Virus record (IMG/VR): IMGVR_UViG_3300038701_000842
Coordinates: 1-42,136 of that record
Source: a virus
Strand: one strand, 5' to 3'
DNA length: 42,136 nucleotides
Made by a program: the position numbers and the translations under genes. The notes beneath the pieces were generated by a model. It was not told the DNA's origin. It saw only the letters and a program-made list of their open reading frames with translations, and ran no database searches. Position 1 is the first letter of the stretch. Each line of letters begins with the position of its first letter. Below, in pieces: positions 7,775 to 42,136 of this stretch.

Positions 7775-10700
7775 ATGGCACTCTCATACATCAACTACCC
7801 GGCTGATGGCTCGACGACCCAGTTCGACATCACCTTCGGATACCTTCGGCGAACCCATGTGTTCGTCTTCGTGGACAACTCCCTCGTCGGGTTCAAGTGG
7901 ATCAGCTCCACCCGCATCGAGATTTCACCGGCCCCACCACTGGAGGCCGAGGTCCGCATCCAGCGACTGACCGACAAGGTCAACCGCATCACCGACTTCG
8001 CAGACGGCCAGACGCTCCTCGCGGGCGACCTCGACGCTGCGACCCTCCAGAACTTCTACCTCGCGCAGGAGATGCTGGACGGGATCACCGATGGCGTCCT
8101 TCAGGGCGACGTGGTCCTGAACCAGCCTCTGGTCGGCGGGGAGCCCCTGACCATTCAGGAGGTCCAAAGCATCCTCAACGAGGCCGCCCGGAACTCCCCA
8201 GTCGTCCAGCAGCTCCTCGGTGACGTCAGCGGGAATACCCAGAGCATCCTCACGGAGACGCAGGATCGCCTTGCTTCCGTCACTGCCGAGACACAGGCCC
8301 GCATCGCGGCTATCGCGGCAGAGGCCCAGTCCCGTCAGGATGCCCTCAGCGCTGAGGCGCAGGCGCGTCTGGACGCCCTCAACGCCCTGCAGGCCCAGAT
8401 CGACGCCGATGTGGCTAGCCTCGCGGTAACCTCGGCTGCCCTGACGCAGGAGATCGCCGACCGCATCAGCGCCGTGGATGGCGTTGCTGCCGGGCTCTCT
8501 CAAGAGGTCACCGACCGCATCAGCGCCGTGGATGGCGTTGCTGCTGGGCTCTCTCAGGAGATCACCGACCGGGCTACAGCTGTTCAGGCGAACGCTGACG
8601 CCCTCGCACAAGAGGCTCTCGACCGCCAAGGCGGCGATCAGGCTCTGGACACTCGGATCGACGCCGTGGTGGCCACAGTGGACGGCAACTCCGCCCTGAT
8701 CGCCTCTGAGCAGACTGCTCGCATCTCCGGGGACAACGCCCTCGCGAGCCAGATCAGTGTCGTGCAGGCTGCCACGGACGGCAACGCCGCCCAGATCGCA
8801 GCGGAGCAGACTGCTCGCATCAACGCCGATACCTCCTTCGCGACGAGCCTCACGGCCCTGACGACCCGGATGGGTGACGCTGAGGCTGAGCTGATCTCCG
8901 TGAACGAGGCTGTGTCCACCGAAACGTCTGCCCGGGTCACGGCCATCAACGGCCTACAGACCAGCCTCAACGCGAACTCGGCGCTGATCGCCTCGAACTC
9001 CACGGCCATCTCCGACGAGACCTCGGCCCGGGCTTCGGCTGTCGCGGCCCTGCAGGCGCTAGTGGACGACAACGCGTCTGCCATCACGACTGAGCAATCG
9101 GTCAGGGCGAGCGCCGACAGCGCCTTCACGCTCCAGATGTCGGCCCTTACGGCCCGCGTAGGCGACAACGAGGCCGGTCTGGTCTCCGTCAACGAGGCTG
9201 TGGCGACCGAAAGCTCTGCCCGTGCGACCGCCATCAGCGGCCTGCAGACGCAGATCGACGGGAACTTCGCCTCCATCGCTGCCAACGCTACCGCGATCTC
9301 TGATGAGACCGGTGCCCGCGTGTCCGCCATCAGCGCCATACAGACGCAGGTGGATGACAACGAGGCTGCCATCACGGCAGAGGCCATGGCTCGCTCGGGT
9401 GCTGACAGTGCCTTCACGCTCTCCCTGAACGCCCTCACAGCGCGTGTAGGAGACAATGAGGCTGACATCATCACGGTCAACGAGGCGGTCTCTACGGAGT
9501 CCTCAGCCCGCGCTTCGGCTATCTCCGGTCTGCAGACGCAGGTGGATGATGCCAACGTCCTGATCGCCTCGAACCAGACGGCGATCTCTGATGAGGCCTC
9601 AGCACGGGCGTCCGACTTCAACGCACTCTCCGCCGAGATCACCCGTGTCGAAGAGACGCAGTCGGCGTTCAGTAAGCCGCTGACCTCCACCGCCGACCTC
9701 CACTCTGTTGGTGCCTCGGTGACCGTCGAGGACGGCGCAGGCGTCTTCGGCCAAGAGGGTATGGTAACCGTCCGCGAGGCGGCTGCTGTAGGTTATGACA
9801 CCACAGCCCAAACGAACGGTGCGTCTGTAGTCATTCCGACGAACATTGCACTGCAGTTCTCCGCTCGCCGGGTGCGCATCGCGGTCCTTGCGAAGGCATC
9901 CTCCGTTCAACCAGCAGCGGACTTCGTGGTCGCTTACTCGACATCGGACACAGGTAACAGCGGTGCGATGTACTCCGCGCTCACATACTCATGGGCGTGG
10001 CACACCTTCTACTATCAGGTTCCTGCCGCCTCTGCTGGCGGCACCGACTTCCTCGGCATCTTCTCCACCGGGTCGGATGGGGATGGCGTGGACGTGGCAC
10101 GCGTCATGATTGACGTAGCGGCAACGGCGGGGGACATCCCTGAGATCGCTCAGAACACAGCCGCGATCACCTCGGAGCAGACCGCTCGGGCTTCTGCAGA
10201 CAGCGCCATCGCCTCTGACGTCTCAGCCCTGACGACGCGCATGGGGGACGCCGAAGCGGACATCGTGTCCAACCAGACGGCTATCTCGAACGAGACGTCC
10301 GCACGGGCCTCAGCGGTGTCCGGCCTACAGACGCAGATCAACGGGAACGCCGCTGCGATCACCTCTGAGCAGACCGCCCGGTCAACGGCTGACAGCTCTC
10401 TTGCCTCCGACATCTCTGGACTGACAGCCCGAGTTGAGGACGCTGAGGCGGGTGTCATCTCGAACTCCACGGCCATCTCGGACGAGGAAACGGCTCGGGC
10501 AGCGTCTATTGACCTGCTGTACGCACGCTTCTCGGGAACGCGTCAAGACATGCTGGGGGCCGACCGGCGGATGTCTTCTGGACTCGATGGGCTTCCACAG
10601 GATGTTGGGAACCTGAACAGCACTTGGTACGAGGAGGAGACGGCTGACGGGCCGAAGGTGACCATCCCGGTCTCAAGTGCGCAACTCTCTCTGAAGGAGA

Positions 10701-13700
10701 CGATCAGGCCGGTCGCTGGCCACACGTATCGCTGTTCTGTGAGATGGCGCTGGTCGGGCACTACCGCGCCCTCGACAACCATCAAGCTCGGCTTTCGCGC
10801 GATGGACGCGACGGACGCGACGTATGTTGTGAACCGTTGGGAAGACGTCTCAGTTCCGGCTGAGAATGTGTGGGCGACCCATGTGTTTGAATACACGGCG
10901 GCTGGCAGTATGGAGGATGAGATTTGGCGGCTCTTCTTCTACTTCGGCGGGGGAGACAGGGACTGCGAACGCGAAGTTGTTCAGCTCTATGTCGAAGACG
11001 TTACGGACGGCGTCGAACGCGAAGAGGCTGTAGAGGCCTTGGTGGCCTCGGAAGCATCCGCGAGGTCCACGGCTGACACTGCCATCGCTTCTGATGTCTC
11101 CGGGCTTACGACGCGGATGGGGGATGCCGAGGCTGACATCGTATCGAACGCTCAGGCTGTCTCTGACGAGGAGGGGGCGAGGGTGTCTGCATTCGAGGCG
11201 CTTACGGCCCGCATGGAAGACACTCAGGGGAGCATCGTGCCGTCCGAGTTCTCCACACTGGACTACTGGACCACCAACTATACCGCAATGGACCAGCCTT
11301 CGGTCACCCCCAACATGAGCCTCGTTACCGACGACCCCGACTTCGGTACGTGCGCCGAGATGGATATTTACAACCGCGCAATCGTCAACAGGACGGCAGT
11401 TCGGCTGGTTCCGGGAAGGGTCTACGAGGTCGAGATGACGGCTAAGGCTGTCTCAGGGGACAATAGGTTCAACTTCCACTTCAACACCTTCGATGCTGAT
11501 AAGGTGAACGTTATCAACAATCAGCAGCTCAGCTTCAAGGTGCCTGAGAGCGGGAGCAACAGTACGCAGCTTCTGGCCTCTGACGGTGTCGTCACGAATA
11601 CACTCCGCTTCAGGACACCGGGATCGCCTACCGCTGGCAATGACGTGAAGGAAGTCTGGCTCTCGGGAGACCAAGTGTGGCTCCTCGCAGGCTGGAGGAG
11701 CAACGCCGGGGAGACCACGGCGTCTACCGTTCGCATCGGGTCTTTCAAGATCAAGGATGTGACTGACACGGTGGCCGCTGAGGCATCGGTGATTTCCGAG
11801 GCCTCTGTTCGGGCGTCCGCAGACAGTGCCATCGCTTCTGACGTCTCAGGCCTCACGACACGCATGGGGGACGCTGAGGCGGACATCTTGTCGAACTCCA
11901 CGGCGATCTCGGACGAGGAGGGCGCACGGGCATCTCAGTTCAACTCGCTGTCCGCAGGGATGACTGGAAGCGGGAACCTGCTGGCAAACGCCTCGTTCAA
12001 CCTCGACACGGGCAGCGGGGCCGTGAGGGCACCGGATGGCTGGGCCATATGGGGCAGTCTTACTCTTACCAATGCAGCCGTAAGGACTGACGTTTGGGCG
12101 CTCGCAAACACCGAGGATGCGACTTGGTACCTGCGAACCGCTGACTACACTCAGACGAGCCTTTTCAAGGAAATGGCATCTGATCCTCATCCCTGTCAGT
12201 CCGGCGAGCGCATCATCGCCTCTGCCCTCACTGGCGCGCACAGGGCAGACCTCCGCGCGTATGTGTTCTTCTACGATGCGAGCGGTGTGTGGCTGGGGAC
12301 TGGCTCTAGTCCGACAATCGTGTCCAACAACACCGAGAAACCGGGCGGAGCTTTGCTCTCTAGCTGGGTGCGGGTGTCCTCGGCGGTGACGGCCCCTGCC
12401 AATGCTGCCTACTGCCGGGCAGTGTTTCGCATGGTCCCATCCGGGGTTTCCCCTGATGCCTACATGTTCATCACCCGGCCTATGCTGGAGAAGGCTGCCT
12501 ACACTGGGCAGACCCTTCCTTCGCCTTGGGTTCCGGGAGACGGTGACAAGGCGGCATCTGCACATGTGGCGTCTGAGGCCTCTGCTCGGGTCTCAGCAGA
12601 CAGTGCCATCGCGTCCGACATCTCAGGCCTCACCACCCGCGTGGGAGATGCCGAGGCAAGCCTCACGACCGTCCAGTCGGTGGCTGCAGACGCTCAGGGA
12701 CGCGCTCAGGCGATCTACGGCCTGCGGACCAACGTGAACGGACATGTGGTCGGCTTCGGCCTGTCCAATGACGGGGCCACAGGGGAGTTCGCGGTCCTTG
12801 CGGACAAGTTCCTGATCGTGGACCCGAGCAACGGCTCGACCGTGGCGTCCCCGTTCAGTGTGATCGGCGGCACGACCTACATCACCAACGCTCGTGTCGG
12901 GGCCGCCCAGATCGACAGCCTCTCCGTGAACCAGCTGACCGCTGGCTCGCTCAACGTGAACCTCACGTTGGACGGGGTGATGGACATCGGGCAGGGCAAG
13001 ATCACGTTCGACAACGGGGTCTACATGAAGGTCCAAGGCGTTGCCTTCGGGGCCAACAATGACCTGATCGAATGGTATGGCCCGAAGATGGCCATCGTGG
13101 CATGTACCAAGGCCAACGCCATCATGTACGCCGACACCACCGGGAACTACCACCTCGGTGGCGGAGTGACGGCTGAGTGGGCCTCGATCCAGAACGTCTC
13201 TGTGCAGACGCTGGACTTGGCCGCTGGTTCAGTCGGGGCATCGACCGTCCTCGACACGGTGGCAACCTTCGACCTCTACACGGGGGCGAACGCCAACCCT
13301 GTCAACGCCACGGAGTTCAACACTTGGACCGACACCTTGCCAGAGGTGCCGATCAAGGTCGGTGACCAGCTCGTGGTGGACTTCTCGTATGACATCGAGT
13401 GCCAGTTCAACGCATTCGAGTTCTTCAACTTCTTGGACACCGTGAGCGTTCGCTACCACTTCGCGAACGGATCGACGACCGTGGCCTACCCGGGCGACTG
13501 GGTGAAGAAGCGGTTCTTCGCGTGTGCGTCCAATGGTGCCATCCCGAGCATCTCAGGGGCTCCTAACTACGACGTACTGGAGAGCTTCCAGCGCAAGCTG
13601 GTGCTGACCATCCCAGACGCCGCCCCGTTCAACACGGCGGGCGCGGAACTGGAGGGGGTCGAAGTGATCCTCTCGGTCGCACCGTATGCCCAGCCCGGCC

Positions 13701-16958: not shown

Positions 16959-17283
16959 CCAGAGGCGACCAGAGGCAAGGCCGGTTTCATGGCCGCCCGG
17001 GCGAGCAATCGCCTATCGTTTTGCCATAGGCTGAGCCTATAGCTCCCTCGGTTCCCATAGGCTTTCCCTATAGCTCCAAAGGCCCCCCAAAGCCGCCCCG
17101 GCCAGAGGCTGACCAGAGGCTGCCCAGAGGCTGACCAGAGGCTGACCCAAGGCCAGCCCCTCGCGCGAGCCTTATATGGGGCGATCTCGAACCCGGCTCG
17201 AACCCGGCTCGAACCCTGCCCGGCTCGAACCCTGCCCGGACCAGAGGCTGGCCGGAGGCTGGCCGGAGGCTGGCCAGAGGCTC
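16959..17283 (+). repeat. Phased CCAGAGGCTG repeats, two clusters with 11-nt period
   Basis: Copies of CCAGAGGCTG (or CCGGAGGCTG) start at 17102, 17113, 17124 and 17135, and again at 17241, 17252, 17263 and 17274, exactly 11 nt apart in each cluster. Two shorter copies start at 16959 and 16969. Between clusters CTCGAACCC(G/T)G starts at 17186, 17197, 17208 and 17224. Spacing near one helical turn suggests a cooperative protein-binding array. Confidence 0.85.
17024..17077 (+). repeat. Two 31-bp repeats each forming a hairpin
   Basis: CCATAGGCT-NNN-CCTATAGCTCC occurs at 17024-17046 and 17055-17077. The first folds as ATAGGC-TGA-GCCTAT, the second as ATAGG-CTTTC-CCTAT. They extend the CCTATAG theme seen at 16.55-16.70 kb. 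Confidence 0.75.
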
Positions 17284-17416
17284 CATTTCCCCAGAACGTG
17301 CAACCTGGTACGCAATAATGATTCGCAACTAGCGCTTCCCAAGGCCGCGCAAGGCCCCTCATGCAAAAAAAGTTCGCCCCAAATCACTAGGCCAGCAAGG
17401 GCTGGACGCCTGTCGG

Positions 17417-17448
17417 GTGCAAGAAAGTGCAAGAAAATGTGCAAGAGG
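17417..17448 (+). repeat. Three GTGCAAGAAA-like direct repeats
   Basis: GTGCAAGAAA at 17417-17426 and 17427-17436 and GTGCAAGAGG at 17439-17448. A short iteron-like array at the edge of the structured region; function unknown. Confidence 0.7.
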
Positions 17449-17469
17449 GCCTTGTGTTCGAACTCGCGC

Positions 17470-17830
17470 CATGGTCTAAGGGGTCATCGCAGCGATGCGG
17501 CTCCGGGGTGCCTCCCGGGGGAAGACCAGCGGCAGGGACCGCAGGGGCCAGCTTGAGACCGGAGACGGTCGACGGCGCTAAGAGCCCGGACAGGAGGCAC
17601 ACGCGTCACCCTCAAGACTTGCGACCCGGCATAGCCGGTGAATGACAGCAGGACCGGGGGGCCAGCCTAGCCATTGTGGCGAGCGGTTGGCGGTCGAAGT
17701 CCGGGGAAGGCCCGGCACGGCTTGGCGTATGGGAGCCCGGCGCGTTATCGCGGACCACGGGTGTTGATCTAGGGGAGACGTCACGGGCTATCGCTGCCCG
17801 TCTGAAGAGGGCCTAGCAGGGCCGAAACGT
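17470..17830 (+). ncRNA. Candidate structured RNA upstream of first early gene
   Basis: Several compact hairpins stand in one stretch: GCGG/CCGC (17529-17542), GACCG-GAGA-CGGTC with a GNRA loop (17557-17570), CCGGC-ATA-GCCGG (17626-17638) and ACGGGC-TATCGCT-GCCCGT (17783-17801). There is no convincing coding frame. It may be the long 5' leader of the early transcript or an independent RNA. I checked it loosely against RNase P, tmRNA and group I intron cores and found no match. Confidence 0.4.
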
Positions 17831-17854
17831 CACACACACACAAAGGGAAATCAC

Positions 17855-18055
17855 ATGAAAATCCAGCTGACCGATTACAATCCGGGCGGTGTTTCAACCT
17901 TCATGATCAGCTCCGGGCCGATGACAATGTGGTTCGAGATGGAAAGCGAGACGGGGAAGCCAGCTAGCGTCATGCCGCTTGTCGAACCCTACGCCACGAA
18001 GGCCCATACAGAGGCTCGCATCCTCTTGAGCCAGCGCAACCGCCACAAGGGATGA
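17855..18055 (+). CDS. Early hypothetical protein 1
   Basis: A 66-residue protein beginning MKIQLTDYNPGG, with AAAGGGA seven bases before the start. It is the first gene after the terminal region, where T7 puts its anti-restriction and host-takeover genes. Predicted mixed alpha/beta with no motif I recognise; the net charge is near neutral, unlike the very acidic T7 Ocr. Its stop codon is the first base triplet of the repeated leader element. Confidence 0.7.
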   Translation: MKIQLTDYNPGGVSTFMISSGPMTMWFEMESETGKPASVMPLVEPYATKAHTEARILLSQRNRHKG

Positions 18056-18110
18056 TGCCCGGTGTCCTGTCCGGCCAGTCTGGACAGGCATCCCGGCACC
18101 ATGCCGACAA
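18053..18110 (+). promoter_or_regulatory. Early spacer RNA element, copy 1
   Basis: Outer stem GATGC (18054-18058) with GCATC (18088-18092); inner stem CTGTCC (18067-18072) with GGACAG (18082-18087); loop GGCCAGTCT (18073-18081); then a second hairpin CGGCA-CCA-TGCCG (18094-18106). Copies 2 and 3 have C-G where this has T-A in the inner stem, a compensatory change. Begins at the upstream stop codon; a ribosome site follows. Likely an RNase III-type processing site or translational control element. Confidence 0.75.
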
Positions 18111-18133
18111 CCGCGAACACAAAGGGAAACACC

Positions 18134-18316
18134 ATGTTTCGAGCTATCCAGATTGCCTATCACTCATTCCGCTGCGACCGCCACAACGTGGGCTTTGCCC
18201 GGCACTACGGGACAGACCTCGGGTTCATGCATTCCCGCACGGCCATGCATCACTTCGATTGCATGCAACGCCTGAAGCGAGAGGAGCGGCGCGCTCGTTC
18301 CCGCCGTCGTACCTGA
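18134..18316 (+). CDS. Early hypothetical protein 2
   Basis: A 60-residue protein, MFRAIQIAYHSFR at its start, ending in a very basic tail (KREERRARSRRRT) that suggests nucleic-acid binding. AAAGGGA precedes ATG 18134. An upstream in-frame ATG lies inside the second hairpin of the leader element and would add 11 residues, but it has no ribosome site. His and Cys are frequent; no family recognised. Confidence 0.6.
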   Translation: MFRAIQIAYHSFRCDRHNVGFARHYGTDLGFMHSRTAMHHFDCMQRLKREERRARSRRRT

Positions 18317-18358
18317 TAGCGTTCGACCTTCCACCTGTTACAACCACGCACACAACAT

Positions 18359-18382
18359 GCGGCACAACCAGCCGCGCCTTTT
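18359..18382 (+). terminator. Intrinsic terminator or attenuator
   Basis: GCGGC (18359-18363), loop ACAACCA, GCCGC (18371-18375), then GCCTTTT. Short stem and four Ts, just 16 bases before the next start codon, so it may attenuate rather than end the early transcript. Confidence 0.45.
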
Positions 18383-18397
18383 GACCGGAGAAATACC

Positions 18398-19192
18398 ATG
18401 CCGAACCTGATCGACCTTCGCTCTATCCGCCGTGCTGACAGCAAGCCTGCCCGTGGCGTCGTCTTCTATCGCGGGCCGTCCATGATTGACGGCGAGCCTA
18501 TCGTTGCCGTGGCACTGTTCGGCTCTCGCAACACTAAGACCGGGAACATGGTGCAGACTTACATCATTCGCGATGACATGGCACCGGTGGATGCTATCCG
18601 CTCCGGTGCCGACAGCACGGTGTGCGGAAGCTGCACACATCGCGGCAAGCGTGATCCTGAGACTGGTGCGCTGATACCCGGCACCCGGACCTGCTACGTT
18701 GTCATCGGACAGGGTCCGACGGGTGTCTGGAAAGGCCTTCAGGCTGGCCAGTACCCGGCGATGAACGCACGCGGCCTATTCGCTGGCAAGTTTGTCCGCC
18801 TTGGTACCTATGGCGACCCTGCCGCGGTCCCGTTTGAAGTCTGGGAAGGCATGCTGGAAGGTACCACGGGGCACAATGGATACACGCACCAAGGGGCTGA
18901 CTGCGATAGCCGCTTTGCATCGCTCTGTATGGCCAGTGCCGACAGTGAGCTGGACCGTGAGCATGCCAAGGCCTTGGGATACCGAACCTTCCGGGTTCGC
19001 CCTGACACGGCCAAGCTCAGGGGCGAGTTCGTCTGCCCGGCCAGTCAAGAGGCGGGCGCTAAGCTGCAGTGCGCCGCTTGCAAGGCCTGTGGCGGCACCA
19101 GCTCGAAGGCCAAGGCGGACGTTACAATCACCATCCATGGTGGTTCTGCAGTCATGGCCAACGCCAAACGCCGCGACATGCTCGCCGCGTGA
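18398..19192 (+). CDS. Early cysteine-rich conserved phage protein
   Basis: A 264-residue protein, the largest early gene, with GGAG before ATG 18398. Cysteine pairs CGSCTHR (about residue 75), RTCYVVIGQGP (about 97), CDS...LC (about 170) and CAACKACGG (about 228) suggest one or two metal sites. The segment TVCGSCTHRG...TCYVVIGQGPTGVWKG is a pattern found in uncharacterised phage and plasmid proteins. Role unknown; host takeover is possible from its early position. The stop codon opens copy 2 of the early leader element. Confidence 0.75.
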   Translation: MPNLIDLRSIRRADSKPARGVVFYRGPSMIDGEPIVAVALFGSRNTKTGNMVQTYIIRDDMAPVDAIRSGADSTVCGSCTHRGKRDPETGALIPGTRTCYVVIGQGPTGVWKGLQAGQYPAMNARGLFAGKFVRLGTYGDPAAVPFEVWEGMLEGTTGHNGYTHQGADCDSRFASLCMASADSELDREHAKALGYRTFRVRPDTAKLRGEFVCPASQEAGAKLQCAACKACGGTSSKAKADVTITIHGGSAVMANAKRRDMLAA

Positions 19193-19248
19193 TGCTCGGT
19201 GACCTGCCCGGCCAGTCTGGGCAGGCATCCCGGCACCATGCCGACAAC
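19190..19248 (+). promoter_or_regulatory. Early spacer RNA element, copy 2
   Basis: Outer stem GATGC (19191-19195) with GCATC (19225-19229); inner stem CCTGCCC (19203-19209) with GGGCAGG (19219-19225); invariant loop GGCCAGTCT (19210-19218); second hairpin CGGCA-CCA-TGCCG (19231-19243). Identical to copy 3 and different from copy 1 at four bases, two of which compensate each other in the stem. Confidence 0.78.
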
Positions 19249-19271
19249 CTCGAACATAAAGGGAAAACACC

Positions 19272-19601
19272 ATGATCCGCACCATCGATACCACGATTGC
19301 ACGCCCCGGCCTGAGCGGCGACGCCGCCACGTCCGAAACCTTCGCCATGATTGTGAAGGGGTTCCGGGGGCCCAAGCGTATCACCGCCGAGGTGACCCAA
19401 TGGGGTGAAGAGGTATTCGTCACGCAGCGCTCCGGCATGCTCAAGGACAGCTACACGGAAGCTGACCGCGTAGAGCAAGACCGGCTGAACACGGAAGACC
19501 CTGTCAAGGATGGCGACGTCATTAGCGTCAATGGCACGACCTATCGAGTCGCGGTCAAGGGCGACTACTCGGACCCCGCTGCGCTGATCGCTGAGGGGTG
19601 A
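19272..19601 (+). CDS. Early hypothetical protein 3
   Basis: A 109-residue acidic protein with AAAGGGAAAA before ATG 19272. Contains MIVKGFRGPKRITAEVTQWG and ends ALIAEG. Predicted beta-rich in the middle and at the end (GDVISVNGTTYRVAV looks like a small beta-barrel strand pair). No family recognised. Its stop begins copy 3 of the leader element, so it is flanked by two identical copies. Confidence 0.7.
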   Translation: MIRTIDTTIARPGLSGDAATSETFAMIVKGFRGPKRITAEVTQWGEEVFVTQRSGMLKDSYTEADRVEQDRLNTEDPVKDGDVISVNGTTYRVAVKGDYSDPAALIAEG

Positions 19602-19657
19602 TGCTCGGTGACCTGCCCGGCCAGTCTGGGCAGGCATCCCGGCACCATGCCGACAAC
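19599..19657 (+). promoter_or_regulatory. Early spacer RNA element, copy 3
   Basis: Same two-hairpin element as at 19190, starting at the stop codon of the previous gene, with inner stem CCTGCCC (19612-19618), loop GGCCAGTCT (19619-19627) and GGGCAGG (19628-19634). It precedes an AAGGAG ribosome site and a very short open frame. Confidence 0.78.
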
Positions 19658-19673
19658 CCGCACACAAGGAGAA

Positions 19674-19730
19674 ATGAACATGACCATGACCACACGCCTT
19701 GCAAGCGCCAAGCGGGAGGGCAAGCGATGA
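19674..19730 (+). CDS. Very short open frame, possible leader peptide
   Basis: Eighteen codons (MNMTMTTRLASAKREGKR) with a perfect AAGGAG just upstream, overlapping the next gene by ATGA. It carries the best ribosome site in the area, which suggests it is translated and couples translation of the following gene. A functional peptide cannot be claimed. Confidence 0.4.
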   Translation: MNMTMTTRLASAKREGKR

Positions 19731-19963: not shown

Positions 19964-20221
19964 ATGACCATGCAACCACACCACAAACACGACTGCGACC
20001 GCTGCCAGCTTGTTGGTGCCATAGCGGGGCCGAAGGGGCCTATTGACCTGTACGTCTGCGCCGATGGCGACCGCAAGCAGGGGCCTACCTACGTCGCCCG
20101 TTACTCCAGCGATGGACCGGACTACTCCAGCGGTTCCCGGCACTTCCTCGACATGCTGCCAGCGGGGGCATCAGCTCACCTGCATGTGGCCCGGCTGATC
20201 CATGACACGGGGGCGGCCTGA
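19964..20221 (+). CDS. Early conserved hypothetical protein 5
   Basis: An 85-residue protein with GAGGA before ATG 19964. The pattern HHKHDCDRCQLVG, then DLYVC, then ARYSSDGPDYSSG is one I know from small uncharacterised phage and plasmid proteins. The CxxC and later Cys may bind a metal. A second start six bases downstream (ATG 19970) would also fit. Function unknown. Confidence 0.7.
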   Translation: MTMQPHHKHDCDRCQLVGAIAGPKGPIDLYVCADGDRKQGPTYVARYSSDGPDYSSGSRHFLDMLPAGASAHLHVARLIHDTGAA

Positions 20222-20321
20222 TCCACGGCGAAACACCGGGGCCACGCGCTCCGGTGTCTTCCGGGCTGACCTCCCGGGACTGACGAGCCTGTCAGCTTTC
20301 TCAACCTACACACAAGGGAAC
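20222..20321 (+). terminator. Spacer with two hairpins
   Basis: ACACCGG (20233-20239) pairs with CCGGTGT (20251-20257), followed by TCTT; then CCGGG (20261-20265) with CCCGG (20273-20277). No real T tract. May be processing or partial termination sites within the early operon. Confidence 0.4.
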
Positions 20322-21707: not shown

Positions 21708-22787
21708 ATGGCTATACGCCGCCGAGGAGACGGCCTGCAGATCGACGTGCAGGTGACCGTGGACGGCCAGACCGTCCGCCACCGCGAAAAGTGCATCGCC
21801 GAGATGCCACAGGCGAGGGCACGTGAGGCCGCCATCCGGGCCGCCCTGCTCGCCGGGGATGATCCGGGTACGCCCGGAGGCCGATCAGCTGGCTCTTCCC
21901 TGACCCTCAAGGACGCTCTGGAGCTGACGTGGGAGAAGTACTGGGCGCATGCCGCCATCGCGCGGACTGTCCGGTCGAACATGAAGACCGCTCTCGAGTT
22001 CTTCGGGGACGACATGCCTGTGGCCCAGATCGACACCCAAGACGCAGACAGGTACGTCGCTCACCTCACGAAGGCCGGGCTGTCGCCCTCTACGATCAGG
22101 TCCAAGTGCGCCTGTATGACGAAGATGTTCAGCTACCTGCACCGCAGGGGCACCGTGAACCGGAAGCCCTACTTCGAGATGCCCAAGCCCAACGACAACA
22201 CGCGGGACAGGGTCATCAGCTTCGAGGAGGAGGCGGAGCTACTGCGCCTGTTCGCTGAGGCCTACGACGAGGCCCTTCCGCGCCGCTCTGACGGCCACAC
22301 AGGGCAGGATTGGGCCGACCTTGTGTCTTTCCTCATGGATACCGGATGCCGCCCCAGCGAGGCCCGTAGGCTTAGCAGCAGGTGCATGCGGGGGACGCTG
22401 GTGGACTTCAAGATCACGAAGACCAACAAGCCCCGCACCATCCCCCTGACCGACAGGGCTGCCGAAGCCTTGGCCCGCCAGATCGAGCGCCACGGCGAGG
22501 AGCCATTCGCATGGGCTACCACCGGGGCCTTCCGCCACGCTTGGGACTGGGCACGGGGCTCGATGAGCAAGTCGGATGACGCCGGTTTCATCCCCTACGC
22601 CCTGCGCCACACATGCGCCACCCGGCTGTACGACCGGACGCGTGACCTGCTGATCGTCCAGCGGTGGCTCGGGCACACGGACATCAAGATGACCCTGCGG
22701 TACGCCAAGCTGCAGCCCGATGACCTTGAGCGCGCCCGCGACCTGCTGCAAGGGGGCAGCACTGCGAAGCTGAGGGTGGTAACCTGA
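21708..22787 (+). CDS. int: Tyrosine-family site-specific integrase
   Basis: A 359-residue recombinase. An N-terminal arm-binding-like domain (to about residue 65) is followed by a SAM-like core-binding domain (LTLKDALELTWEKYW to about 160) and the catalytic domain with Arg in TGCRPSEARRL (about 213), Lys in TKTNKPRTIPL, HxxR in YALRHTCATRLY (about 302), His in LGHTDIKMTLRYAKL and the nucleophilic Tyr in the same segment. It would integrate the circular genome at the adjacent tRNA-Leu. AAAGG precedes the start; the gene follows the MarR-like gene directly. Confidence 0.95.
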   Translation: MAIRRRGDGLQIDVQVTVDGQTVRHREKCIAEMPQARAREAAIRAALLAGDDPGTPGGRSAGSSLTLKDALELTWEKYWAHAAIARTVRSNMKTALEFFGDDMPVAQIDTQDADRYVAHLTKAGLSPSTIRSKCACMTKMFSYLHRRGTVNRKPYFEMPKPNDNTRDRVISFEEEAELLRLFAEAYDEALPRRSDGHTGQDWADLVSFLMDTGCRPSEARRLSSRCMRGTLVDFKITKTNKPRTIPLTDRAAEALARQIERHGEEPFAWATTGAFRHAWDWARGSMSKSDDAGFIPYALRHTCATRLYDRTRDLLIVQRWLGHTDIKMTLRYAKLQPDDLERARDLLQGGSTAKLRVVT

Positions 22788-23106: not shown

Positions 23107-23120
23107 GTGACGCGTGACGC
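23107..23120. promoter_or_regulatory. GTGACGCG repeat overlapping the RNA polymerase start
   Basis: GTGACGCG at 23107-23114 and GTGACGC at 23114-23120 overlap by one base and cover the GTG start codon of the polymerase gene. If these are integrase arm sites, integrase binding could hinder RNAP expression. Coding constraint alone could also explain part of the match. Confidence 0.4.
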
Positions 23121-25585
23121 TCAACCTCAACATCATCGACTTCACAGACGAACAGCTTCGCCGGGAACTGGAACACGAGCAGGACATGATCGACACCGGC
23201 ATAGCCACGGTGCGGAACCGGCAGGAAGGCGAACGGGACCGGGGTAACGCCGGGGCGCTGGCCGGTGGCCGGGTTCTCATGTCCCGGATGTCCGGCACGC
23301 TGGCCGAGCGGATCATCGAAGAGATCGCCCGCCTCGAAGACGGCCGGGTGAAGCGCAAGCCGCCAGAGCTTCGCACCCTCAAGCTCCTCCCGGCGAAAGA
23401 TGCGGCGGTCCTCGCGATCCGCTCGGTGACCAACGTCCTCGCTCAGTACAAGAACGACCTCTGCACCACGCAGCGCCTTGGCTTCTGCATCGGCAATGAG
23501 ATCGAGGGCGAGTACCTCGCTCGTCTGTTCCGCAAGAACGACCGGGGCCTGTTCGACCGCGTGATCCGCAACGTGAACGAACGCTCGAAGAACCCGGAGC
23601 AGCGTCGCAAGGAAATCGTCGAGGCATACGAGCGCATCAGCGATGACGACGCCGCACGCCTGACGAACACCGACAAGGTACGCCTAGGAACCTTCCTGCT
23701 GGCCCAGATCGAGGATATGGGGGTCGTATCCTCCTCGACCATCGTGAAGGGCAAGAAAGCGTCCAAGGTGTTCGAGCTGACCGAGACGGCCATGAACATC
23801 ATGACCAAGGCAGACGAGATGGCGGCGGAGATGCAGCCGCACCTGTACCCCACGCTGATCCAGCCCCGCCCTTGGACGACGCTACGCTCTGGCGGCTACT
23901 GGCTCCCCTTCAAGCGGGGCGGGCAGATGGTTGTGGCCCGGACGAAGACCAACGGCATCCGCAAGGCCACCGAGGAGGAGATGCCACACATGTTCCGCCC
24001 GGTGAACTACCTGCAGAACACCCCCTTCCGCGTCAACTCGAAGGTTCTCGCGGTGGTCGAGCGTATGCGTGAGACCGGCATCACCTGCGGTAGCCTGCCC
24101 AAGATGATCCTCGAAAACGTACCAGCCAAGCCGCACGACATCGAGACGAACGAGGATGCCCGCAAGGTGTGGAGCCGCGCTGCCCGAGAGGTCCACACCC
24201 GCAACGCCACAGCGAAGGGTAAGATACTGTCCGTGGACAAGACCATTCGGCTGGCTGCAGGCCTCCGCAACGAGGAGCACATCTACTTCCCGAAGGTCGT
24301 GGACTTCCGGGGGCGTGTGTACGACTGCCCGTCCTTCCTGAAGCCGCAGGGCGACGACCTGTCCAAGGGTCTCTTGGAGTTCGCCAGCGGCAAGGTCGTA
24401 GGCGAGGACGGGGCCTACTGGCTGGCTGTCCACGGTGCGAACGTCTGGGGCGAGGACAAGTGCAGCCTCGACGAGCGGGTCCGCTGGGTAGAGGCAAACG
24501 AGGAGCGCATCCGCCGTACCGCCGACGAGCCGTTCTCGGATCGCTGGTGGATGGACGCGGACAAGCCCTTCCAGTTCCTGTCCTTCTGCTTCGACTGGGC
24601 TGGCTTCTGCCAGAACGGCTTCGACCACGTCAGCCACACGCCTGTCGCCATGGACGGCTCGTGCAACGGCCTACAGCACCTCTCCGCCATGCTGCGGGAC
24701 AGCGTGGGCGGTGCAGCTGTGAACCTGCTACCTGCCGACAAACCGCAGGACATCTACACGCAGGTCATGACGAAGGTGGTGGCCGTGCTCGGAGAGCGGG
24801 CCGCTGCCGGTGAGCCTACGGCACAGAAGTGGCTGCCGCTGATGAAGCGCTCGGTAGTCAAGCGTCCGGTCATGACGCTGCCCTACGGGGCCACGAAGAC
24901 GGGCTTCGCCGACCAGATCATGGAGGACACCATCCGTCCCCTTGAGAAGGAAGGGAAGAGCCCGTTCAAGTCAGAGCCCTACAAGGCCGCCCAGTACCTC
25001 GGGAAGCTCGTCTGGGAGGCCACCGGCCAGACCGTGATCGCAGCTCGTGCCGCCATGGACTGGCTGCAGGAGGTAGCGAAGATCGTGGCCAAGGCCAACC
25101 AGCCCATCGAGTGGACCACGCCGTCAGGCTTCACCGTGAAGCAGGACTACCGGAAGGCGGTCAGCCGCAAAGTCGAGCTGTTCGCAGCGGGGCAGCGGGT
25201 CACGCTCTACGTCGCAGAGGGGCACGAGGACAAGATCGACTGCGCCAAGATGGCACTCGCTATTGCCCCGAACTTCGTACACGCCATGGACGCGGCGCAC
25301 ATGCTCCGCACGGTGGAACTCCTGCTCGACGTCGTCGGGCCTGATGTCCATCTGTCCATGGTTCACGACAGCTACGGATGCCACGCCGCTGACGCTGAGG
25401 CGCTGGCCTTCGCTATCCGACAGGCCTTCGTGCAGATGTACCAAGAGCAGGACTGGCTGGAGGCATTCCGCGAGGAGGTCGCCGCCCAGCTGCCCGAGGA
25501 GATCGCCCAGACCCTGCCACCTGTGCCGGGGCACGGTGACCTGAACATCTCCGAAACGCTTAACTCTTTGTACTTCTTCGCATAA
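23114..25585 (+). CDS. Single-subunit DNA-directed RNA polymerase, T7 gp1-like
   Basis: An 823-residue polymerase (T7 has 883) that would transcribe middle and late genes. Motifs: DFRGRVYDCPSFLKPQGDD (about residue 397), motif A with catalytic Asp in MDGSCNGLQHLSAMLRD (about 514), motif B RPVMTLPYGATKTGF (about 585), motif C SMVHDSYG (about 752) and the hydrophobic C-terminus ending FFA, as T7 ends FAFA. GTG 23114 is chosen for AAAGGA 8-10 bases upstream; no ATG is nearby. A promoter-like element follows the gene. Confidence 0.96.
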   Translation: MTLNLNIIDFTDEQLRRELEHEQDMIDTGIATVRNRQEGERDRGNAGALAGGRVLMSRMSGTLAERIIEEIARLEDGRVKRKPPELRTLKLLPAKDAAVLAIRSVTNVLAQYKNDLCTTQRLGFCIGNEIEGEYLARLFRKNDRGLFDRVIRNVNERSKNPEQRRKEIVEAYERISDDDAARLTNTDKVRLGTFLLAQIEDMGVVSSSTIVKGKKASKVFELTETAMNIMTKADEMAAEMQPHLYPTLIQPRPWTTLRSGGYWLPFKRGGQMVVARTKTNGIRKATEEEMPHMFRPVNYLQNTPFRVNSKVLAVVERMRETGITCGSLPKMILENVPAKPHDIETNEDARKVWSRAAREVHTRNATAKGKILSVDKTIRLAAGLRNEEHIYFPKVVDFRGRVYDCPSFLKPQGDDLSKGLLEFASGKVVGEDGAYWLAVHGANVWGEDKCSLDERVRWVEANEERIRRTADEPFSDRWWMDADKPFQFLSFCFDWAGFCQNGFDHVSHTPVAMDGSCNGLQHLSAMLRDSVGGAAVNLLPADKPQDIYTQVMTKVVAVLGERAAAGEPTAQKWLPLMKRSVVKRPVMTLPYGATKTGFADQIMEDTIRPLEKEGKSPFKSEPYKAAQYLGKLVWEATGQTVIAARAAMDWLQEVAKIVAKANQPIEWTTPSGFTVKQDYRKAVSRKVELFAAGQRVTLYVAEGHEDKIDCAKMALAIAPNFVHAMDAAHMLRTVELLLDVVGPDVHLSMVHDSYGCHAADAEALAFAIRQAFVQMYQEQDWLEAFREEVAAQLPEEIAQTLPPVPGHGDLNISETLNSLYFFA

Positions 25586-40751: not shown

Positions 40752-42136
40752 TGGCCCTGATCAACCAGCCGATCCCGAACCTGTACGGTGGGGTCAGCCA
40801 ACAGCCCCCTCTGGCGCGGTACATCAACCAGCTCGAGCTGGCGAAGAACTGCCTCGCCGACCCTGTGGAAGGCCTGACCAAACGCCCGCCGACTGAGCAT
40901 ATCGCCCGGATCATCCCCGAGGTCTACGCTGAGGGGGCCGCCGTGTTCCCCATTGATCGCGATCCGGATAACCGCTTCATCGCTGTGGTCCGCTCTGGCC
41001 GGGTACAGGTGTTCGACACCGCCGATGGCTCCGAGAAGACGGTCCTGAACGCCACGAACGCCTACCTCGACACGCCCACGCCGACCACGTCCTTCCGGTC
41101 CCTGACCATCGCGGACTACACCTTCGTCGTGAACCGCGACGTCGTCGTCAGGGCCAAGGATGACACAGCCCCGACACGGCCCCACGAGGGCCTGATCTTC
41201 GTCCGGGCTGGCAACTACGGGAAGGACTACCGGATCACCGTGAAGCGGAAGTCCGATGGCGTCACCCTGACGAGCGCCCTGTTCGGCACCCCACGAGGGG
41301 ATGACCCCTCGCACATCGACAGCATCGACACGGCCTTCATCGCCCAGTCCCTGTTCAACAGCCTGGCGGTCGCCTCGAAGTCCATCGACGGCTCCGTGAT
41401 CTACTTCACGATGAACGAGGAGTTCACCGTCGAGGTCGAGGACGGGCAGGGCAAGCAAGCCATGAAGGCCTTCGCAGGGGAGGTGCAGCGGTTCTCGGAC
41501 CTCCCTGAGACCGCCAAAGAGGGCGTTGTCCTCAAGGTGGTTGGGGACCAGACGTCGGCCTTTGACGACTACTGGGTCCGCTTCAACGGTAAGGTCTGGG
41601 AGGAAACGCTCCAGCCCGGCCTGAAGACATCGCTCGACGAGACGACAATGCCGGTGGCCATCGTGCGTAGGCCGGACACGACCTTCGAGCTGATCACCCT
41701 TCCTTGGGAGGACCGGCAGGTTGGCGATGACGACAGCGCCCCGTTCCCCTCGATCACGGACCTGCGGCTCTCGACGATGTTCTACTTCCGCAACCGCCTC
41801 GGTTTCTTAGCGGACGAGAATGTCCTGTTATCGCAGGCGGGGGACTACTTCAATCTGTTCCCGACCACCATCACGCAAGTGCTGGACAGCGATCCCATTG
41901 ACGTGGTCGCGGGGGACGCCTCTGGGGAAAGCTCCCCGGTGTCGATCCTCGAACACGCCGTGGCCTTCGACCGCAAGCTGGTCCTGTTCGCCCGCAATGC
42001 CCAGTTCATCATGGGCGCTGATGGCGTCCTGACCCCCTCCACGGCCACCATCGACCCGGTGACGAGCTTCCAAGCCTCGGCCCGGTGCCGCCCAGTCTCG
42101 GCGGGCCGCTTCATCTACTTCACGTTCGACCGCGTC
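40751..42136 (+). CDS. Tail tubular protein B, gp12-like (5' part, continues at left edge)
   Basis: The first 462 codons of the nozzle protein. ALINQPIPNLYGGVSQQPPL and KNCLADPVEGLTKRPPTEHI are the family's conserved beginning. Runs open to the window end and joins in frame with 3-1103; the last two bases (tc) differ in one position from the corresponding bases at 127-128. Distal tail opening that binds fibres and lets DNA out. Confidence 0.93.
   Translation, partial: MALINQPIPNLYGGVSQQPPLARYINQLELAKNCLADPVEGLTKRPPTEHIARIIPEVYAEGAAVFPIDRDPDNRFIAVVRSGRVQVFDTADGSEKTVLNATNAYLDTPTPTTSFRSLTIADYTFVVNRDVVVRAKDDTAPTRPHEGLIFVRAGNYGKDYRITVKRKSDGVTLTSALFGTPRGDDPSHIDSIDTAFIAQSLFNSLAVASKSIDGSVIYFTMNEEFTVEVEDGQGKQAMKAFAGEVQRFSDLPETAKEGVVLKVVGDQTSAFDDYWVRFNGKVWEETLQPGLKTSLDETTMPVAIVRRPDTTFELITLPWEDRQVGDDDSAPFPSITDLRLSTMFYFRNRLGFLADENVLLSQAGDYFNLFPTTITQVLDSDPIDVVAGDASGESSPVSILEHAVAFDRKLVLFARNAQFIMGADGVLTPSTATIDPVTSFQASARCRPVSAGRFIYFTFDRV
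42009..42134. repeat. Terminal overlap of contig (right copy)
   Basis: Exact copy of 1-126. Base 42135 (t) disagrees with base 127 (a), probably an error at the very contig end, since the left copy keeps Asp in the protein. Confidence 0.93.

Follow-up and report, generated by a model that had tools for sequence, protein, structure and literature searches.

What is the function of a structured repeat that starts exactly on the stop codons of early phage genes? The stretch analysed here (the window, the whole 42,136 bases of a virus record) harbours a T7-type RNA polymerase gene (23114-25585), an integrase gene (21708-22787) and a tRNA-Leu, and protein family matches revealed a primase/helicase, a DNA polymerase and a head-tail adaptor; it is a temperate T7-like phage. 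Identical 126-base repeats were present at positions 1-126 and 42009-42134, as left by the assembly of a circular or terminally redundant genome. The early region extends from about 17855 onward. Tandem repeats of 10-11 bases, possibly origin iterons or protein sites, lie 5' of the early operon in the window (17100-17285) and in the related contig L001 (333-542), and their units differ.

The repeated element and its copies

The early genes and the element copies are arranged as follows:

17855-18055, plus strand: early gene 1 (66 aa), common to the window and to contig L033 (92% amino acid identity), along with element copy 1
18053-18112, plus strand: element copy 1, beginning at the TGA stop of ORF 17855-18055 (stem-loop 1 at 18061-18092, spacer C at 18093, stem-loop 2 at 18094-18106, tail to 18112)
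18134-18316, plus strand: early gene 2 (60 aa), homologous to the gene that opens the early region of L001 (42% identity)
18398-19192, plus strand: early gene 3 (264 aa), PHROG 2554, a family with no assigned function
19190-19249, plus strand: element copy 2, beginning at the TGA stop of ORF 18398-19192
19272-19601, plus strand: early gene 4 (109 aa), no match in the family search
19599-19658, plus strand: element copy 3, same sequence as copy 2, beginning at the TGA stop of ORF 19272-19601

The early gene 1 protein had no match in the phages collection. A sequence-only reading of this DNA had placed three copies on early-gene stops (18053, 19190 and 19599), and each was found to start on a TGA. 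Alignment confirmed that copies 2 and 3 are identical, as had been stated (over 60 nt counted from the stop and one further base before it, with divergence immediately outside), and that four positions distinguish copy 1 from copy 2 (7, 13, 18 and 32 of the element), the last two constituting the described swap of a T-A for a C-G pair. The conserved unit is 60 nt, not the 58 bases proposed. The 22-nt core occurred three times in the window with up to three mismatches (0.01 expected by chance). Neither element nor hammerhead was present in the spacer between genes 2 and 3, and several closely spaced genes have neither between them. A leader peptide beginning at the ATG of stem-loop 2 was considered and set aside, since by eye this ATG is in frame with the downstream gene in some copies only.

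The RNA polymerase search of viral contigs recovered L001 (76% identity to the window), L002 (74%), L003 (61%), L004 and L205 (53% each), and the fragment L005. In the phages collection the best RNA polymerase among the matches listed was 38% identical, and genome contigs provided five distant matches (32-37%). Three further element copies were located, two in L002 (at 4647 and 6112) and one in L033 (at 9751), a contig of another phage recovered by the element pattern search. The known set comprises six copies, with five distinct sequences, from three contigs (the window, L002 and L033), and in every one of them the element begins precisely at a TGA stop codon. The covariance model based on w1, w2 and L033 only scored 54.8 bits at L002 6112 and 25.1 bits at L002 4647. 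With default filters, model R1 missed copy L002b, which was recovered with the filters off (25.1 bits, E 5e-5 over three sources). Model R1 also matched the reverse strand of the copies (up to 21.5 bits), because the hairpins are near-palindromic.

Scanning 5.69 Mb (both strands counted) for a GGTGN-hairpin-CATC pattern returned the known copies alone with the conserved 3' part. Pattern scans of the viral contigs gave 84 and 65 stretches, and the structural screen of the 5.69 Mb detected the helix together with the conserved 3' part only in the six known copies; the remainder were judged to be chance. DNA searches of the phages collection gave matches of the large query in coding sequence and short, weak matches to the element. 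No convincing element copy was found in 385 alphaproteobacterial genomes. Model R1 matched 2/385 of them at E ≤ 0.001 and 1/3 genomes at E ≤ 0.1, as well as 2/28 in the family of one matching genome at E ≤ 0.01 (L304 being the second). These matches were judged to be chance because L239 and L240 apparently lie inside coding sequence (by eye), the chromosomal L241 (1501-1563) has 21/22 bases of the element 3' part and a partial match to its 5' part with the apical helix absent, and partial matches to the 3' part (up to two mismatches) occur in 6/385 genomes. In 67 other loci, model R1 gave four matches at E ≤ 1, the best of them at 0.058, and these were likewise judged to be chance.

Fold, covariation and constraint

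In the best-supported fold, stem-loop 1 (GGUG, one bulged nucleotide, a helix of 7-9 pairs, CAUC) is followed by one C, stem-loop 2 (CGGCA-CCA-UGCCG) and the tail ACA; L002b carries a variant stem-loop 2 (CGCA-CUCA-UGCG) and L033 the tail AAA. Stem-loop 1 pairs in 100% of cells across the five distinct sequences. Three of its 11 pairs changed on both sides, one on one side, and seven were invariant. The covariation score of the whole structure was reached by none of 500 shuffles and none of six slides. Selection on RNA structure had been claimed from the window alone, with covariation across related phages proposed as the check, and the three double-sided changes support it: the element is a structured RNA under strong nucleotide-level constraint. 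Two details of that claim did not extend beyond the window. The outer stem GATGC/GCATC is constant in the window only, since L033 has GACGC (a C.A mismatch) and no sequence has a compensatory change there; the loop GGCCAGTCT, described as invariant, is the same throughout the window and not conserved in L002.

Stem-loop 2 was better than shuffled 3' strands in all five sequences (p 0.007-0.029); in L002b it counted as broken in the ungapped alignment and pairs once one base is deleted per side. The strand at the stop codon can also be paired with a stem-loop 2 strand, giving a switch or a long RNase III-like hairpin, and two double changes in L002b fit this pairing. The switch was dropped because its energy gain did not exceed that of random 5' strands (p 0.27-0.51), in contrast to stem-loop 2, which beats shuffled sequence. 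A pseudoknotted alternative (GAUGC:GCAUC plus GGUG:CACC) pairs in 93.3% of cells. It adds no covariation to that of the apical helix, and the outer helix breaks in L033 and to some extent in L002b. Fits by eye to an HDV-like nested pseudoknot, the hairpin ribozyme and twister all failed.

A covarying helix in a hairpin located at early-gene boundaries is what would be expected if host RNase III, or another host nuclease, cut the element as in the T7 early-gene spacers. We consider this a tentative possibility. Against it, the longest helix has 11-13 bp including one bulge, its extension by a longer 5' pairing is at chance level, and such a site does not explain why stem-loop 2 and the tail are near-fully conserved. 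The chief rival to processing is a binding or antitermination site, in which the two stem-loops bind RNA polymerase, like HK022 putRNA, or a protein of phage or host origin, for instance to protect untranslated spacers from Rho. The element does have tandem stem-loops one base apart, the first with a bulge, and putRNAs are likewise made of two stem-loops, in about 70 nt, and suppress intrinsic and Rho-dependent termination (PMC9378689). However, according to the same source, each operon has a single put site, close to an early promoter, that exerts its effect over 10 kb or more, whereas the element is present in several copies at gene ends, in slots otherwise taken by hammerheads. We regard this reading as a somewhat less likely possibility.

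Between copy 2 and L002a, 12/13 bases 5' of the helix and 24/24 bases 3' of it are identical, while the helix and loop differ in sequence and, by one nucleotide, in length. Between the window and L033, identity is 177/201 bases in gene 1 and 54/55 in the first 55 bases of the element, and therefore the element is kept tighter than the gene that precedes it. This similarity stops at the gene 1 start codon and at the element end, and gene 1 plus the element behaves as a cassette. The window phage seems to have gained this cassette by insertion, because in L001 the homologue of window gene 2 is the first gene 3' of a type III hammerhead. A gene and element common to two otherwise different phages, with similarity ending at the start codon and at the element 3' end, would also be compatible with an element that acts as DNA, that is, a recombination site marking gene cassettes in an integron attC-like layout. 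This is very improbable, as the compensatory changes in the apical helix favour an RNA fold (a folded single DNA strand could also account for them) and the attC core pattern is not visible in the element.

Hammerhead motifs at early-gene boundaries

Hammerheads are treated throughout as motif matches predicted from sequence, the criterion being CUGANGA, GAAA and UH cleavage-site blocks joined by three stems. The strict scanner covered types I-III with strict cores, and the relaxed scan covered types II and III with one extra nucleotide allowed at stem II. No element copy was reported by the strict scan for types I-III or by the relaxed scan for types II and III, and the alignment lacks CUGANGA in all five distinct element sequences; by these measures the element is not a hammerhead. 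Rfam (cmscan of window positions 17380-19700, E ≤ 10) gave four matches, all far under their gathering scores and none to a ribozyme. This is weak evidence, because hammerhead motifs of L205 (at gathering) and L004 (at E ≤ 10) likewise escaped Rfam. Beside the element, the window carries two hammerhead motifs:

17776-17831, plus strand: type III hammerhead motif before the first early gene, with one extra nucleotide at stem II and a predicted cut before 17783
20227-20289, plus strand: canonical type II hammerhead motif, 6 nt past the stop of ORF 19964-20221, with a predicted cut before 20259

The window type III motif was absent from the Rfam results and has counterparts in L001, L002 and L205; in L004 the motif before the first early gene is of type II. 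In the strict scan, L001, L205 and the window (the last also via its pieces L035 and L036) yielded motifs of types II and III, and seven loci from other phages yielded type I motifs. These seven (L178, L180, L183, L185, L186, L187 and L191) are phage contigs that have a PHROG 2554 gene too. The relaxed scan of seven sources gave 19 motifs (two in the window, four in L001, one in L002, none in L003, three in L004, nine in L205 and none in L033), compared to none in 2.84 Mb of Markov sequence. The zero in L003 carries little weight because this contig starts past most early genes. In 5.40 Mb of other loci there were six motifs, five of them on pieces of the window or L002 contigs and one in L170.

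Type II motifs lie at early-operon stops in four contigs with closely related RNA polymerases (the window, L001, L004 and L205), up to eight per phage. All eight found by the scanner in L205 start within 11 nt of a stop codon, as do all three in L001 within 2 nt; two of the three in L004 are just 3' of a stop and the third is in the leader. Rfam reported three type II hammerheads (RF02276) in L001, while most of the early-boundary motifs were not reported by Rfam at gathering. A weak ninth type II motif was seen by eye in L205, 3' of the stop at 773. By these positions, the element occupies hammerhead slots at early-gene boundaries. The slot argument fails for L033, because the 14 kb scanned there contain the element and no type II or III hammerhead.

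Other RNA-like features were observed in these contigs. A noncoding leader of approximately 200-320 nt ends at the type III hammerhead in the window (17462-17775), L001 (685-922) and L002 (3108-3312), with the common blocks CTAAG..., GGCNCTGCACGG..., ATGGGAG and GTTGATCTAGGGGAG; this leader may be a structured phage RNA with a ribozyme-generated 3' end. In L002 (5618-5680), a structured spacer directly after a stop (GTTTACC...GGTAAAC, with a second possible pairing CTGTAGG/CCTACAG) looks by eye like another RNA type in a similar slot. L033 has other two-hairpin spacers past stop codons (10512-10588, 11428-11508 and 12110-12190), the first of which bears the loop of the window copies on a different stem. 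Rfam detected a group I intron in L205 (15983-16254).

Cutting of the early message, which the sequence-only reading had proposed by analogy with T7, is made more plausible by the hammerheads that relatives have in these slots; the RNase III part of that proposal may hold, though the helix is short and bulged and the conserved 3' hairpin and tail are not accounted for by such a site. Hammerheads clustered around single prophage genes cleave, and one case adjoins marR and integrase genes (PMC3088659). In the literature outside subscription papers, covered as titles and abstract starts, no ribozymes were described at early-gene boundaries of T7-like phages, and PMC3088659 was the only report of hammerhead clusters in prophages among the papers listed. 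There is also precedent for reading a structured RNA found where a ribozyme is expected as a possible ribozyme of a new type (PMC10085705 and PMC4604425). From the slot position and the ribozyme precedent, we slightly favour an intercistronic transcript-processing element, with cleavage inferred from position. It would be a cis-acting RNA on the early polycistronic transcript, acting at gene boundaries and equal in role to the hammerheads at other boundaries of the window phage and its relatives; the message would be separated between the upstream stop codon and the ribosome-binding site of the next gene, leaving the upstream piece with a structured 3' end. Against the processing reading stand the six copies (five distinct sequences) on three contigs only, the absence of a hammerhead core and of an Rfam match, the L033 exception, and the gene junctions that have neither element nor hammerhead.

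Whether the element would cut itself or be cut by a host nuclease is about evenly balanced. A self-cleaving ribozyme of an undescribed class, possibly with the GGUG:CACC pseudoknot beside GAUGC:GCAUC, is a tentative possibility, consistent with the slot equivalence with hammerheads, with fixed bases that surround a freely varying helix, and with the reasoning in PMC4604425. Nevertheless, the nested fold leaves few fixed bases unpaired, the pseudoknot has no covariation of its own and has the failing outer helix noted above, and the ten other candidates tested in PMC10085705 are reported not to cleave. It is equally tentative that a new small ribozyme class replaced type II hammerheads at early boundaries of temperate T7-like phages; if true, several unrelated ribozymes would cut the early message of these phages, a task that falls to RNase III in T7. 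Overall, the element is probably a transcript-cutting element and possibly a self-cutting RNA of a new type. Many known self-cleaving ribozymes lie near phage genes, mostly with no established purpose. Temperate T7-like phages with ribozyme motifs at early stops (up to eight of type II per operon) suggest such a job, the separation of the early message in place of RNase III, and a structured RNA in the hammerhead slots is a candidate for either a new class of ribozyme or a new processing signal.

Comparison with known systems

In T7, RNase III sites separate the early genes. The element resembles them as an early-boundary hairpin in a phage with a T7-type RNA polymerase, and differs in its shorter bulged helix, its strictly conserved second hairpin and tail, and its start on the stop codon. 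Integron attC sites are folded single-stranded DNA recombination sites with conserved core triplets, and are substrates of the integron integrase; their likeness to the element comes from layout alone (a gene followed by a 3' element of about 60 nt). The stem-loops of putRNA are bound by the zinc-binding domain of the RNA polymerase beta' subunit, downstream of an early promoter. Compared by layout, HK022 putRNA (PMC9378689) and the element share two tandem stem-loops, a similar total size and an early operon, but the element is found in several copies at gene ends and putRNA once per operon near the promoter. The element also resembles the prophage hammerhead clusters (type II, RF02276), such as the Agrobacterium tail/ardA/marR/integrase locus (PMC3088659), and the window itself has two hammerhead motifs. 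Although the element has a different fold, with neither CUGANGA nor a hammerhead junction, and a cleavage predicted from position, the element and these clusters are both found at gene boundaries of phage operons near marR-like and integrase genes, in several copies per operon and with a freely varying helix.
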